Origin: a virus
IMG/VR virus record: IMGVR_UViG_3300020469_000168
Coordinates: 1-30,503 of that record
Direction: 5' to 3' (one strand)
Length of the DNA: 30,503 nt
Positions 4,100-29,890 of this stretch are shown here, piece after piece; the first letter of the stretch is position 1; the number at the start of each line of letters is the position of its first letter. A program made the position numbers and the translations under genes. The notes beneath the pieces were generated by a model. It saw only the letters and a program-made list of their open reading frames with translations. It did no database searches and was not told where the DNA came from.

Positions 4100-4243
4100 A
4101 TGGCTATTTTAGAATCTGCAATTTTTTGGATCGTGGTTGCAGCTGCAAGTGAAATCATTGCATTGTCACCACTTAAGGACAACAGCATCATCCAACTGGT
4201 ACTTCACGCTGTCACTAGCTTGAAGCCCTCAAAAAAGAACTAA
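4100..4243 (+). CDS. 47-aa membrane protein (zero-frame product; frameshift donor)
   Basis: A small conserved-looking cyanophage-type protein, MAILESAIFWIVVAAASEII..., with one N-terminal hydrophobic segment (~residues 5-24) and a basic C-terminus ending LKPSKKN. I recall similar short proteins from other marine cyanophages, all without known function. The end of the gene carries the heptamer A AAA AAG one codon before the TAA stop, so a fraction of ribosomes may slip into the -1 frame and make a 137-residue product (see next entries). A membrane or lysis role is possible but unsupported. Confidence 0.75.
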   Translation: MAILESAIFWIVVAAASEIIALSPLKDNSIIQLVLHAVTSLKPSKKN

Positions 4244-4271
4244 ATATCCCACCCGACGCAGAGTGGGTATT
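4231..4271 (+). promoter_or_regulatory. Predicted programmed -1 ribosomal frameshift signal
   Basis: The slippery heptamer A AAA AAG (4231-4237) is in the correct phase (TCA AAA AAG AAC TAA) and is the same heptamer used in E. coli dnaX. Five bases later a hairpin begins: AATA-(T bulge)-CCCAC (4243-4252) pairs with GTGGGTATT (4263-4271) around a 10-nt loop. The zero-frame stop lies 3 bases after the heptamer. All three parts needed for -1 slippage are present. Confidence 0.7.
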
Positions 4272-4512
4272 TCGTTATGACAGCAGAAATGCAGCTGTCA
4301 GATTAAAGCATTGGGTCCAAGATCAAAAGTTTAGAGCTACTCTTCCGCAGAAAATTGATAATTCTGTGGAGGAGTATCTTGCTGTCGTAGAAGAAGCCCA
4401 ACGGAAAGAATGGGAATATTGCGAAAAAATAGATGGAGAGACACCGTTAGGTGGAGAAATGCGGCTCACTCATAAAAGTAATAATCACACTACATCCGAA
4501 AAGAATCATTAA
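4237..4512 (+). CDS. -1 frame extension of the 47-aa membrane protein (no start codon of its own)
   Basis: A 91-codon frame with no usable start codon at its 5' end. It opens at 4219 after a TAG and its first ATG is 19 codons from the end. It reads ELNIPPDAEWVFRYDSRNAA... and is soluble, rich in Glu and Trp, with a helical stretch VEEYLAVVEEAQRKEWEY. Fusion to residues 1-46 of the upstream gene by -1 slippage gives a 137-aa protein with a membrane anchor and a cytoplasmic or periplasmic tail. A GTG at 4366 could start a ~48-aa fragment but has a poor context. No homologous domain is recognised. Confidence 0.6.
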   Translation, partial: ELNIPPDAEWVFRYDSRNAAVRLKHWVQDQKFRATLPQKIDNSVEEYLAVVEEAQRKEWEYCEKIDGETPLGGEMRLTHKSNNHTTSEKNH

Positions 4513-4551: not shown

Positions 4552-4950
4552 ATGGGTATTGCTGAAGACTGGGCTGAACTAATGTTTAGTCTGGACTGCC
4601 TTTCTAAAGGCTCCGCTAAGCGCAAATTCCGAAGGTCAATTAAATACGGCTGGGGCGGATTGTGTGCTTACTGTCGATCTAATCGAGCCACCACATTAGA
4701 TCACTTAAAGCCAAAATCAAGAGGAGGTTCGAGCCTAAGAAGTAATCTGATTCCAGCCTGTCAAGCGTGTAATCACTCAAAAGGTTCTAGACATTGGTTA
4801 GAGTGGTTTAAAGAGCAAAGTTTCTTTAATGAAACTGCCAAAGAATTAATTGAAGAATGGATTTCAAACAAAAGATTTATTGAAGAGGAATTAGATGAAG
4901 AACGACCTAACAATCGAGCAAAGATTTGCCCTGAGCCGTGCACGATATGA
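4552..4950 (+). CDS. HNH endonuclease
   Basis: A 132-residue protein with a complete HNH/ββα-metal core: CAYC...TLDHLKPKSRGG, then NLIPACQACNHSKG. It carries the two zinc-binding Cys pairs, the His of the LDH motif, the Asn and the final His. In phages such enzymes act as free-standing homing endonucleases or in packaging or DNA processing. The 3' end overlaps the next gene by 56 bases. Confidence 0.88.
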   Translation: MGIAEDWAELMFSLDCLSKGSAKRKFRRSIKYGWGGLCAYCRSNRATTLDHLKPKSRGGSSLRSNLIPACQACNHSKGSRHWLEWFKEQSFFNETAKELIEEWISNKRFIEEELDEERPNNRAKICPEPCTI

Positions 4951-5227
4951 AGTAAATCGAATGAGCAGACCGGCACTAGAAAAAGTTGCGCTGCGCTTGC
5001 TGAAGTCAAGAATGGAGCAGAAGAACGGTATTCAAACTATGCTGATGCAAAATGGAATCTTGTTCAAAATAGATGAGCAGCAAGCAGGATTACCAGAAAT
5101 TATTTCAGAGCAAACATTTATTGAATTGCTTGAAATGCAAGACGACGACTCAATGCCAACTGACATTATGGATAAAGGATGGGAAGACGATGATCTAGAT
5201 GATGATGACCTCATGTTTATTGGATAA
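4895..5227 (+). CDS. NblA-like (phycobilisome degradation) domain protein with acidic tail
   Basis: A 110-residue protein. Its first ~45 residues fit the NblA/Ycf18 pattern: LTIEQRFALSRARYEVNRMS, then R-x-A-(x)n helix with L-L and a Met/Gln-rich end, comparable to L-S-x-E-Q-x-F...V-x-x-M-S-R in NblA. NblA is a small helical adaptor that directs phycobilisomes to Clp protease. Homologues are known in some cyanophages. The rest (~50-110) is an acidic extension ending in DDDLDDDDLMFIG, absent from classical NblA. The start at 4895 lies inside the HNH gene. I base the family call on pattern only. It may instead be an unrelated helical protein. Confidence 0.5.
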   Translation: MKNDLTIEQRFALSRARYEVNRMSRPALEKVALRLLKSRMEQKNGIQTMLMQNGILFKIDEQQAGLPEIISEQTFIELLEMQDDDSMPTDIMDKGWEDDDLDDDDLMFIG

Positions 5228-7893: not shown

Positions 7894-9198
7894 CTAATGA
7901 GTGCAGGCCCAGTTGTCGCCAATAGAAGATGCAGCAGTAATAGGTACTCTGAATTTGTAATAATCACCAGCTTTGGGTGCTGCTGAAACTAATAAAGATG
8001 CAACATGATCGGCTTCGCTTGGTAATACACTAAGCTGTTGCTCGTCATGAACATAAGCACAGCGTGTATAGTCAATATTATATGTAAGCCCTGCGTCGTC
8101 TAGCAACTGTTGACTAACAACAACCCAACGCTTGCTCAGTATTGCACCCGCGCTCTGAAGCAGGAAGTTAAGGGAAGCGTGTTCTGCGCGGCAGAAGATA
8201 GGTCTACCGTCTAGACCACGCAGCCGCCCATAACTTCTGACTTTCTGCTTGACTGCATCAATTAGAGGCTCTAGTCCAGGAATAGCATCAAGAAACTTAC
8301 GACGAAGTTCATTACCAAGTTGTTTCTTCTGTGCATCAGATAGCTCAGGTCTGAGACTATGACCTAACTTCACGTCTCCAGCGCCGTAGATAAATGCGTA
8401 AGTAATTGTCTTGACCTCACGCCTTGTGCATCCCACACGATCAGCATTCTGCTGGTGTATGTCTCCATTAAGGACGACATCAGCAAACGCGCCTTCATCG
8501 AATCTACTTAGGTAATGCCCTAAAGCTCGAAGTTCTAAGCCTTCAAGGTCAGCACCGACCATTACCATTCCAGGGTGTGGCACAAACAACTGACGAGCCC
8601 AAGGTGCACTCACAACTTGCCCAAGATTGGGACCCCGGTGGGCATTACGCCCTGTAATTGTAGAAAGAGTGCAGCTGTGATGAATACAGTTGTCATCTTC
8701 AACGGTATTGAACCAGGAGTTTGATCCTTCTGACAGCTGCCCTAAATGCTTTTGCAGCGTTAGCAGCTTGATAAACATCTCACATTCTTCATGTAGCAGC
8801 GCATTGTCCTGCTGAAGAGCTATGTCACGCATTTCAGAGAGTGTTGCCTCATCAACTTTCGGCTTGCCTGTTTCAGTGACACGAGTGAAGCGAGCATCAC
8901 GGTGGGTCTGCAGTGCCCAAGCAATGTGCTGACGGCTAGTGGGATTGAAGTCAAGCAGCTTTGTCATCGGAGCACCTGAGACGTAGCCATTCTTTTTGTC
9001 AGTCCTTTTGGGTGTAAAGACTTTGCCAGGAACAAAACGAAAACGTTGCTGAATTGTGGACTTGAGTTGGTCTACTTCAGCATTGAGTCCTGTACGCACA
9101 CGCTCTGCAGCATCACGATCAAATCGAAAACCAGACGCTTCCTGCTCGGCCATAATCCGAGCCATAGACATTTCAAGTTCTACACAATCAAGCATCAT
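7894..9198 (-). CDS. T7-like family A DNA polymerase, polymerase domain only
   Basis: The product matches the palm/fingers/thumb part of T7 DNA polymerase. It has motif A VGADLEGLELRALGHYLS, motif B (O-helix) KTITYAFIYGAG, motif C YVHDEQQ with the catalytic Asp, the segment GLDGRPIFCRAEHASLN, and the C-terminal GDNWACTH that mirrors the T7 end. The 3'-5' exonuclease domain is missing here and is encoded by the separate gene at 9559-10083. No large thioredoxin-binding loop insertion is apparent between the thumb motifs. Three ATGs (9204, 9198, 9195) are possible. The one at 9198 has GAGG six bases upstream. It overlaps the end of the preceding small gene, so it is translationally coupled to it. 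Confidence 0.92.
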   Translation of the reverse strand: MMLDCVELEMSMARIMAEQEASGFRFDRDAAERVRTGLNAEVDQLKSTIQQRFRFVPGKVFTPKRTDKKNGYVSGAPMTKLLDFNPTSRQHIAWALQTHRDARFTRVTETGKPKVDEATLSEMRDIALQQDNALLHEECEMFIKLLTLQKHLGQLSEGSNSWFNTVEDDNCIHHSCTLSTITGRNAHRGPNLGQVVSAPWARQLFVPHPGMVMVGADLEGLELRALGHYLSRFDEGAFADVVLNGDIHQQNADRVGCTRREVKTITYAFIYGAGDVKLGHSLRPELSDAQKKQLGNELRRKFLDAIPGLEPLIDAVKQKVRSYGRLRGLDGRPIFCRAEHASLNFLLQSAGAILSKRWVVVSQQLLDDAGLTYNIDYTRCAYVHDEQQLSVLPSEADHVASLLVSAAPKAGDYYKFRVPITAASSIGDNWACTH

Positions 9199-9445
9199 CG
9201 TCATCCTCTTTTTTATTAAATCCAAATGCAATAGATTTTTCTTTAAGCAGTCGATCTGCTCTAGATTTGTGGCCCAGTTTGGCAATGCTTTCCATTATTT
9301 TTAAAGTATCTTCAGTTGTTGAACCCTTTGGCATTCGGCTGTGAACTTCATTGAACAATGGAAAGAACGTATCGGAAGCTTCTTTTACTTCTTCAACAGT
9401 AAGTGGATCAGATTTTTTAGGTGTTTTGCTCATTTGTTTCTTCAT
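9188..9445 (-). CDS. 85-aa protein encoded between the two polymerase halves
   Basis: Starts at ATG 9445 (MKKQMSK; 9433 is an alternative) and ends in an acidic cluster KKEDDDDA. It is helical with a conserved-looking LFNEVHSRMPKGST segment. It overlaps the genes on both sides, forming a chain from exonuclease to polymerase. It could be a linker or processivity subunit of the split polymerase, but no family is recognised. Confidence 0.7.
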   Translation of the reverse strand: MKKQMSKTPKKSDPLTVEEVKEASDTFFPLFNEVHSRMPKGSTTEDTLKIMESIAKLGHKSRADRLLKEKSIAFGFNKKEDDDDA

Positions 9446-9566
9446 TAATTTGGTTCCAATAGAGCTCCCAGTTATGGAAGCGGTAAACTACCCCGTCTAC
9501 GTCTTCTGTTTGTTTGACGTAATCAAGGGGGCATTGATTAAGCCAATCGTAAAATTCTTTAGGCAT
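9417..9566 (-). CDS. 49-aa protein directly after the exonuclease gene
   Basis: ATG at 9566 to TAA at 9417. Its start overlaps the exonuclease stop by 8 bases (ATGCCTAA) and is preceded by GGAG. The product MPKEFYDWLNQCPLDYVKQT continues with DGVVYRFHNWELYWNQINEE, rich in aromatic residues. Function unknown. Coupling on both sides supports it being real. Confidence 0.6.
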   Translation of the reverse strand: MPKEFYDWLNQCPLDYVKQTEDVDGVVYRFHNWELYWNQINEETNEQNT

Positions 9567-10083
9567 AATCTTTCATTCTCCGGAGCATCAGCTCATATAG
9601 TTTGAGAGTAACGAGAGTGTCTTGCTCGCAGTATGAGAGCATCTCAGGGGTGTAAACATCCCAAGCAGCTTCGTGCTTGCCGTAGTCACCTTTAAAGCAG
9701 CGGAGTCGATGACCCCACGCTTCTAGCGAGTGACGTCCATACAAACGTTGTGGCATGCCACTAGGGCGACGCTCATAGTCACGATCTTGAATATGAGGGT
9801 AGAACAGGCGACTAAGCACAAGGGTGTCTACGACTTGACCTTGATAGTCAAAGTCGTAGGTCTCTTTGATTAAAGGTATGTCATAGCCAGCAATGTTATG
9901 ACCAATTAAAAAGTCAGCACGCTTAAGCTGTTCAATACCAAGATCGATACTCTGATCGTTTTGATTATCAAACACTATAGTTTGATCGACTTCATTTAGA
10001 TCTCTGGCAACAATGCAGTGAATACGCGAGCCTTGACGAAGCAAGCCAGTGCTTTCAAGGTCAAACAGTAAAGTTCGATTCAT
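9559..10083 (-). CDS. DnaQ/T7-type 3'-5' exonuclease (proofreading domain of the split DNA polymerase)
   Basis: A 174-residue protein equal to the N-terminal exonuclease domain of T7 DNA polymerase. It has Exo I LLFDLEST (Asp and Glu), Exo II GHNIAGYDIPL, the shared block VDTLVLSRLFYPH, HSLEAWGHRLRCFKGDYGKH, and Exo III YCEQDTLVT (Tyr and Asp). All four metal-binding acids are present, so proofreading should work. It begins at ATG 10083, where the exonuclease homology starts, and not at the longer frame start at 10248. It overlaps the preceding deaminase-like gene by 23 bases. In T7 this domain is fused to the polymerase. Here ~360 bases and two tiny genes separate them. Confidence 0.9.
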   Translation of the reverse strand: MNRTLLFDLESTGLLRQGSRIHCIVARDLNEVDQTIVFDNQNDQSIDLGIEQLKRADFLIGHNIAGYDIPLIKETYDFDYQGQVVDTLVLSRLFYPHIQDRDYERRPSGMPQRLYGRHSLEAWGHRLRCFKGDYGKHEAAWDVYTPEMLSYCEQDTLVTLKLYELMLRRMKDYA

Positions 10084-10642
10084 CGTTTGGTTCTGAATAT
10101 TTGTCAATGTTGAAATCTGTGCTTTCAACCGGGATTCCCGTGTAGAGGTCTTGGTTTTCGAACTGCTTTTCTTCTTCGTCAAAGCGTGGGGCTTGATCGT
10201 TTGTGGTGAATCTTTCGTCATTGTTTTCAAAATATGGTTCAATTGCAATTGATAACTCGCGAGCTAGCCGAGCAGCCCTGCGGAATTCATCTTTGTAGTA
10301 AGGCTCCCACTCATGAGCAAGAACAACTAGCTTCCGAACACCCATAAGGTGCAGTTGGAATACTGAAGCAGAGAATGGATAACGTGTTGTATAAATAACA
10401 GCGCCGGCCATAGTCGTGCCACGCTTCGAAGCAGTGGCTATTGCATAGGTTACACAGTCGATTTCAACTTTGCAACTAGCAAGGATACTGCGACCATCAC
10501 CAATTATCTCTCGATCTCTAACAACAACTGCGCCACCTGGACTAATTGGGTGAGTAGATCCTTTAGCAACAGCTTTAGCAATTTCAATAAAATGCTTTTC
10601 TTTGTTTGCAATAAAAGACGGATCTCCAGTTACGATTGGCAT
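10061..10642 (-). CDS. dCMP-deaminase-fold protein lacking the zinc site (probable pseudoenzyme)
   Basis: A 193-residue protein. Residues ~30-110 follow the cytidine/deoxycytidylate deaminase fold: GGAVVVRDREIIGDGRS, then AIATASKRGTTMAGAVIYTT, then LHLMGVRKLVVLA. Active members have His-Ala-Glu before the helix and Pro-Cys-x-x-Cys after the third strand. Aligned here they read Asp-Cys-Val (62-64) and Pro-Phe-Ser-Ala-Ser (89-93). The proton-shuttling Glu and both zinc Cys are gone, so dCMP deamination is unlikely. The last ~60 residues are acidic and disordered. It may be a regulatory or structural relative. It heads the replication cluster and sits beside two other catalytically altered proteins. 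Confidence 0.65.
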   Translation of the reverse strand: MPIVTGDPSFIANKEKHFIEIAKAVAKGSTHPISPGGAVVVRDREIIGDGRSILASCKVEIDCVTYAIATASKRGTTMAGAVIYTTRYPFSASVFQLHLMGVRKLVVLAHEWEPYYKDEFRRAARLARELSIAIEPYFENNDERFTTNDQAPRFDEEEKQFENQDLYTGIPVESTDFNIDKYSEPNDESNFTV

Positions 10643-28825: not shown

Positions 28826-29890
28826 TTACAAAGCATTGCCTCTTGGAAGAACTTCTTCTGGAAAAATAAAATTCTCGTGAGGCTGGTCTGCTGGTGCAAG
28901 CCAAGCTCTCAATCCTTCGTTGAGTAGTACGTTCTTCGTGTAGAACGTTTCGAACTCGGGGTCTTCAGCTGCTCGAAGCTCTTGGGAAACAAAGTCGTAA
29001 GCACGGAGATTAAGGGCAAGGCCAATAATACCAATGCTAGATACCCAAAGACCCATAACAGGTACAAACAGCATAAAAAAGTGAAGCCAGCGCTTGTTAC
29101 TAAAAGCCACACCAAAGATCTGAGACCAGAAACGATTAGCTGTAACCATCGAGTAAGTCTCTTCTTCTTGCGTTGGTTCGAACGCTTTAAATGTATTTGA
29201 TTGTTCTCCATCTTCAAACAATGTGTTCTCTACAGTTGCTCCATGAATGGCACAAAGCAGAGCACCTCCAAGAATGCCTGCTACTCCCATCATATGGAAC
29301 GGGTTGAGCGTCCAGTTATGGAAACCCTGTAGGAAGAGTAAGAAGCGGAATATCGCAGCAACACCAAACGATGGTGCAAAGAACCAACTGCTTTGTCCGA
29401 GTGGGTAAATGAGAAACACACTGACAAAAACAGCAATTGGCCCAGAAAACGCAATAGCATTGTACGGACGTATGCCTACTAAACGACTGATTTCAAATTG
29501 CCGAAGCATGAAACCAATCAAAGCAAATGCGCCGTGCAGTGCTACAAAGTTCCACAGGCCACCAAGTTGTACCCAACGTACAAAGCTACCTTGTGCTTCA
29601 GGTCCCCACAGCAGCATTAGTGAATGACCCATGGCGTCAGCAGGTGTGCTTACCGCCGCTGTGAGGAAGTTGGCTCCTTCGAGATACGAACTGGCAAGAC
29701 CATGGGTGTACCAGGAGGTAGCGAAGGTGGTTCCTGTGAGCCATCCGCCAATAGCCATATAAGCAGTTGGAAACAGCAGGATGCCAGACCAACCCACAAA
29801 AATAAATCGATCACGTTTGAGCCAGTCATCAAGTCGATCAAACCAAGAGAACCGGTTTCTAGATAATGTTCCATTAGAAAGTGTTGTCAT
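28826..29890 (-). CDS. psbD: Photosystem II reaction-centre protein D2
   Basis: A 354-residue D2 protein of full length, with the conserved N-terminus ([20 protein letters not shown]), the chlorophyll/quinone region [15 protein letters not shown], and [20 protein letters not shown] with the iron-ligand histidine. It ends with the usual [10 protein letters not shown]. No truncation or frameshift is seen. D2 pairs with D1 and binds pheophytin and the plastoquinone QA. A phage copy keeps photosystem II repaired while host transcription falls. No psbA is in the window. It begins within the stop of the DoxX-like gene (ATGA). Confidence 0.98.

Follow-up and report, generated by a model that had tools for sequence, protein, structure and literature searches.

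Between positions 4100 and 4512 of a cyanophage sequence, an open reading frame for a 47-residue membrane protein is followed, in the -1 frame, by 91 codons that lack a start codon, which raises the question of how the second frame is translated and what its product might do. The sequence (hereafter the window, meaning the whole 30.5-kb stretch of DNA that was analysed) is an IMG/VR virus record whose gene content marks it as a cyanophage. It carries cyanophage-type genes for ribonucleotide reductase, thymidylate synthase, helicase/primase and DNA polymerase, and psbA (28829-29890) and an endolysin gene (457-1218) are both located on the minus strand. The locus has an integrase-like gene on one side and an HNH gene on the other, with an NblA-like gene nearby. 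The best explanation of the locus is a programmed -1 ribosomal frameshift at 4231-4237, to which a probability of about 0.9 is assigned from sequence comparisons; these comparisons show conservation of the slippery heptamer, its phase and the stop position, as well as coding constraint on the extension.

Two other features of the window were recorded in passing. The NblA-like protein (4895-5227, 110 aa) scored 27.3 bits against Pfam NblA, for which the cut-off is 25 bits, in a cyanophage that bears psbA, and similar genes follow an HNH gene in L013, L015, L016, L018, L022 and L023. The DNA polymerase gene (7894-10248, minus strand) is apparently split, with ORFs at 7894-9285 and 9559-10248 corresponding to different parts of one PHROG.

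Organization of the Proposed Frameshift Locus

The zero-frame ORF (4100-4243, plus strand) opens with an ATG at 4100 and encodes a 47-aa protein with a single transmembrane (TM) segment, MAILESAIFWIVVAAASEIIALSPLKDNSIIQLVLHAVTSLKPSKKN, which belongs to the PHROG 22542 family. The hydrophobic segment, read off the sequence, spans approximately residues 7-24, and an alignment revealed that S-E is conserved inside it. Near the end of the ORF, the heptamer A AAA AAG occupies 4231-4237 on the plus strand in the phase X XXY YYZ (context TCA AAA AAG AAC TAA, 4229-4243), and the zero-frame stop TAA (4241-4243) lies one codon beyond it. The -1 frame, closed upstream by a TAG at 4216-4218, runs open from 4219 to the TAA at 4510-4512, and its first ATG, GTG or TTG is the GTG at 4366. 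The extension (4237-4512, plus strand) thus has 91 codons and a stop, without a start codon, and a slip at the heptamer would join it to the membrane protein in a predicted fusion of 137 aa (4100-4512, plus strand). The extension ends in a version (PLGGEMRLTHK) of a C-terminal motif, LGGxMxI(xAPW), that recurs among its relatives.

Minimum free energy (MFE) folding of the 65 nt that follow the heptamer gave a bulged stem-loop on the plus strand (4242-4272), which begins 4-5 nt 3′ of the heptamer and might act as a stimulator. Its 10-bp stem pairs 4242-4252 with 4263-4272, and the fold has a z-score of -4.2 relative to dinucleotide shuffles. An earlier, sequence-only reading of the window had described the heptamer and its phase, the stop one codon past it and the start-less 91-codon frame, all of which are borne out by the sequence; the 9-bp bulged hairpin that it placed at 4243-4271 was recovered essentially as claimed.

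According to the proposed mechanism, most ribosomes would terminate one codon past A AAA AAG and release the 47-aa single-TM protein, and a fraction would undergo tandem slippage in the P and A sites and translate 91 further codons to yield the 137-aa fusion. The fusion would present the same membrane segment, followed by a long helical stalk and the conserved C-terminal motif. We infer that both products accumulate, presumably with the short form as the major one and the long form as the minor.

Conservation of the Predicted Frameshift among Cyanophages

The nearest relative, on an independent 18-kb contig (L004/L013), shares this heptamer but closes its zero frame with a different stop, TGA, and its extension has 90% amino acid identity. 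The divergent cultured cyanophage KBS-S-2A carries a homologous -1 extension, significant by tblastn, after the sequence GCA AAA AAG AGC TGA. Both loci speak against a coincidental arrangement. A AAA AAG is present at the same place in the cultured phages S-CBS1, S-CBS3, 7B11-B, WH11-B and S-B28, and G GGA AAG is present at the slip site of cultured S-EIVl. The records of the cultured phages either give the parts as a hypothetical protein, or as two separate ones, or omit them from the annotation.

A profile search with the TM protein yielded at least 527 matching stretches in IMG/VR, the best 80 of which were used. A canonical heptamer precedes the zero-frame stop by 7 or 10 nt in 75 of these 80 loci, and the -1 extension was open in all 73 heptamer loci that could be read, the other two running off their contigs. 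The heptamer is missing from the remaining five, namely L021 and a MedDCM-type group. Two of the 80 duplicate S-CBS1 and S-CBS3 in IMG/VR, and one more is L013, which is the same as L004, so these counts are not fully independent. The 73 IMG/VR loci, together with eight further sequences (the window and cultured phages), formed a set of 81 loci with 71 distinct fusions. The heptamer is A AAA AAG in 78 members of this set and G GGA AAG in three, and in every one of the 81 the zero-frame stop follows the first slip base at a distance of 7 or 10 nt.

Because these loci had been picked by similarity to the TM protein, a second scan, blind to the TM gene, was performed with a degenerate pattern that looked only for DNA able to encode the C-terminal motif, LGGxMxIx[AS]PW. 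Each of the 88 loci read has its match close to the C-terminal end of a frame that resembles the extension. A TM gene was recognisable upstream in 69 of them, and all 69 showed both the -1 relation and a canonical heptamer: A AAA AAG in 44, C CCA AAG in 20, G GGA AAG in four and C CCA AAA in one. The other 19 comprise incomplete contigs, a few TM genes that escaped the search expression, and ten one-frame genes of the cyanomyovirus type. Homologous loci from both the profile search and the blind scan therefore keep the heptamer and an open -1 frame, a check on which the sequence-only reading had staked its proposal.

That reading had also suggested that the extension might be an overlooked general feature of cyanophages. 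Many cyanosiphoviruses and some cyanopodoviruses bear this out, but P60, S-SRP01 and the MedDCM-type group have no extension, S-CBS2 and a Cyanobium locus use stop-start overlaps, and in the cyanomyoviruses the counterpart lies in one frame (see below). The gene was also encountered in L101, L102 and L103, which are filed under bacterial metagenome-assembled genomes (TMED88, Blastopirellula, Hyphomonadaceae) and are probably phage contigs that were mis-binned.

Coding Constraint and Codon Choice

The selection and codon figures are summary statistics on related sequences rather than exact probabilities: the median pN/pS of the extension was 0.245 in the -1 frame (388 pairs), compared with 1.94 when read in a shifted frame; between the window and L013 it was 0.12, and third codon positions account for 19 of the 27 substitutions; and, given local codon usage, the synonymous codons that preserve the heptamer had a log10 P of about -37 (29 lineages, <80% nucleotide identity). 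Lys-Lys dipeptides elsewhere in these loci are encoded as A AAA AAG in only 7 of 197 instances. On the pN/pS comparisons, the -1 frame is under purifying selection.

Decoding of the Junction

Slippage could in principle occur during transcription, if RNA polymerase added one A in the A6/A7 run to produce mRNAs that join both frames, and runs of this length are indeed present in most members. However, the members with GGGAAAG, CCCAAAG or CCCAAAA contain no run longer than four nucleotides and still display the exact X XXY YYZ phase, and codon phase is not read by a polymerase. The variation of X among A, C and G, with AAG (once AAA) as the A-site codon and with phase and stop fixed, fits ribosomal slippage better, and polymerase slippage is considered very improbable. 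A similarly small probability is given to termination-reinitiation, whereby the extension would be translated separately, without frameshifting, as the arrangements in the S-CBS2 (TAGTG) and Cyanobium (GTGA) relatives and the CTGA at the junction of some members might suggest. The corresponding junction in the window is CTA, which is not a start codon, and this route would need no canonical heptamer. In addition, the part of the -1 frame that leads from the preceding stop to the slip site contains neither ATG nor GTG in any of the 81 loci, and contains TTG in only three, which speaks against independent initiation; an independent gene for the extension was rejected on the absence of ATG and GTG. 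The homopolymer run at the junction might also point to an error in sequencing or assembly, or to a gene in decay that an indel has split. This explanation is hardly credible, given the purifying selection in the -1 frame and the many independent contigs and cultured genomes that share the arrangement with different stops and heptamers; the specific concern of an error in the A-run, raised with the original proposal, is thereby ruled out.

Programmed ribosomal frameshifting is therefore the favoured reading of the junction. The contribution of the downstream structure is less uniform, since the 65-nt folds among the relatives have a mean z-score of -1.5, with many near 0 and some strong. The hairpin is thus only a possible stimulator, and downstream structure may tune the slip site rather than define it.

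Other Arrangements of the Two Modules

In S-CBS2 (L093 1250-1740), the two modules are encoded as gp049, which is TM-like (hhalign probability 82%), and gp048, which is extension-like (95%), with a TAGTG stop-start overlap. In a contig of Cyanobium sp. N5-Cardenillas (L104, near 2471-2900), they are joined by a GTGA overlap. These two arrangements indicate that covalent fusion is not always needed. In cyanomyoviruses, for example in S-PM2 p161 (PHROG 3316), the C-terminal module (hhalign 97% with the extension) is found in one frame behind an N-terminal membrane segment that is unrelated to the 47-aa TM protein, and these one-frame forms have Cys-rich C-termini. Taken together, the arrangements suggest that the membrane segment and the stalk with its motif work together, and that the decoding route can change.

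A C-terminal GDEGWSIxISNP stretch that resembles the motif was observed in T4-GC 410 / PHROG 6464 proteins of P-HM1, S-SSM4 and P-SSM4 (L234-L236). This family was rejected as a full relative at an hhalign probability of only 27%.

Possible Role in Host Lysis

Searches of Pfam, PHROGs and PDB sequences returned no informative match for the function of either part, and no holin family was matched by the 47-aa protein in Pfam or PHROGs. An AlphaFold model of the extension consists of a long helix and a weak beta hairpin, at low confidence (mean pLDDT 69.5, pTM 0.34). Of 69 testable loci, 51 have a lysozyme gene downstream on the same strand, no more than 1.5 kb away, and four more have one on the other strand at a distance of 400 nt or less. 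In 55 of 78 loci, a TM or coiled-coil gene is likewise no farther than 400 nt away. In L038 (2501-3597), no stop closes the -1 extension, which reads on in frame into a lysozyme as a 324-codon frame. Among the cyanomyoviruses, the PHROG 3316 gene directly follows a DPBB lytic transglycosylase gene in S-PM2 (L225) and a Phage_lysozyme2 gene in DSL-LC02 (L226) and S-CAM7 (L227), and the counterpart in S-H34 (L228) is near a C39 endolysin; the proteins of all four share a C-terminus of the LGGEMRIxAPW type.

The annotated lysozyme of S-EIVl (L010 4330-4638, minus strand) matches Pfam DUF7936, not a lysozyme domain, and a frame near this gene matches lysozyme queries in phmmer.

Lysozyme adjacency and the muralytic neighbours in cyanomyoviruses favour a role in lysis. 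At close to even odds, the pair may work in host lysis, in which the 47-aa form would be a holin-like or holin-regulating membrane protein, and the fusion would offer its stalk and motif to some partner, for instance the endolysin or another small TM/coiled-coil protein. The link is weaker in the window, where, unlike in most relatives, the endolysin gene is about 2.9 kb from the locus and on the opposite strand. A serious if somewhat less probable alternative is that the frameshift is real and the protein is not a lysis factor, being instead a host-takeover protein of the thylakoid or plasma membrane, or a virion protein. In favour of this possibility, the window locus is separated from the endolysin and has the integrase-like gene on one side and the HNH and NblA-like genes on the other, and the weakly similar T4-GC 410 proteins are located near gp3/uvsY/nrdB, whereas the lysozyme genes that adjoin the locus in most relatives, and the cyanomyovirus muralytic genes, argue against it. 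The fusion might also be an i-spanin-like protein, with an N-terminal TM segment and a helical periplasmic stalk, and the 47-aa form its truncated partner. The predicted long helix after the TM segment, the endolysin adjacency and the Cys-rich C-termini of the cyanomyovirus forms would suit such a protein. It is nevertheless an unlikely assignment, because an o-spanin lipoprotein partner was not identified, the window protein matched no spanin family in Pfam or PHROGs, and the charge distribution of the 47-aa form suggests a C-in topology. By eye, the positive-inside rule would place the C-terminus of the 47-aa protein in the cytoplasm and that of the Lys-rich, Cys-bearing cyanomyovirus form in the periplasm.

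Returning to the lysis reading, the findings can tentatively be generalised, at somewhat less than even odds, to a widespread new class of cyanophage lysis regulators. In this class, -1 frameshifting would set the ratio of a minimal holin-like form to a form bearing the LGGxMxIxAPW stalk, with X interchangeable among A, C and G, and relatives would use stop-start coupling or a one-frame gene instead. If the lysis link is true, these genes would offer a handle on the timing of host lysis by these cyanophages. The comparisons add a frameshift family that is conserved widely among viruses infecting major primary producers of oceans and lakes; a single C-terminal motif links the hypothetical-protein families PHROG 22542 and PHROG 3316 with the unannotated extensions. 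They also indicate that the annotations of S-CBS1, S-CBS3, KBS-S-2A and S-B28 miss or split a protein.

Comparison with Known Frameshift and Lysis Systems

No earlier description of this cyanophage frameshift was found in the open-access literature, partly represented by abstracts, in which absence is weak evidence. In E. coli dnaX, -1 frameshifting occurs on A AAA AAG with a downstream stem. The window has the identical heptamer and also a downstream stem, and no upstream Shine-Dalgarno stimulator was noticed in it by eye; the outcome differs, however, in that frameshifting shortens the dnaX product and would extend that of the window. G GGA AAG, which is found at the slip site of some cyanophage members, is the heptamer of phage lambda.

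Phage genes, a lysin gene among them, are already known to undergo frameshifting. In tail assembly chaperones of the lambda gpG/gpGT type, a short gene undergoes a -1 frameshift close to its 3′ end, which generates a C-terminally extended minor product (PMC5009743). The same kind of extension is predicted here, although the cyanophage product is a membrane protein rather than a tail chaperone, and its gene is usually found beside a lysozyme gene. The capsid gene 10 of T7 and T3 likewise yields two products, gp10A and the C-terminally extended minor product gp10B (PMC5009743); two products of one gene are predicted for the cyanophage locus as well, but gp10 is a capsid protein of unrelated sequence. 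A frameshift is also reported in a phage lysis gene, which is listed among the genes known to contain one (PMC10885494), but this gene encodes the endolysin itself and not a small membrane protein. Class III holins, such as ORF70 of cyanophage MaMV-DC, are small single-TM proteins, and holin genes are usually located near endolysin genes (PMC12843271). The 47-aa protein resembles them in its size and single TM segment, and differs in matching no holin family; a word search of that paper found no mention of frameshifting. Further counterparts are the PHROG 3316 proteins (S-PM2 p161 and others), which likewise combine a membrane segment with a C-terminal LGGEMRIxAPW module and have muralytic neighbours, but which are encoded in one frame, without a frameshift, and begin with an unrelated membrane segment.
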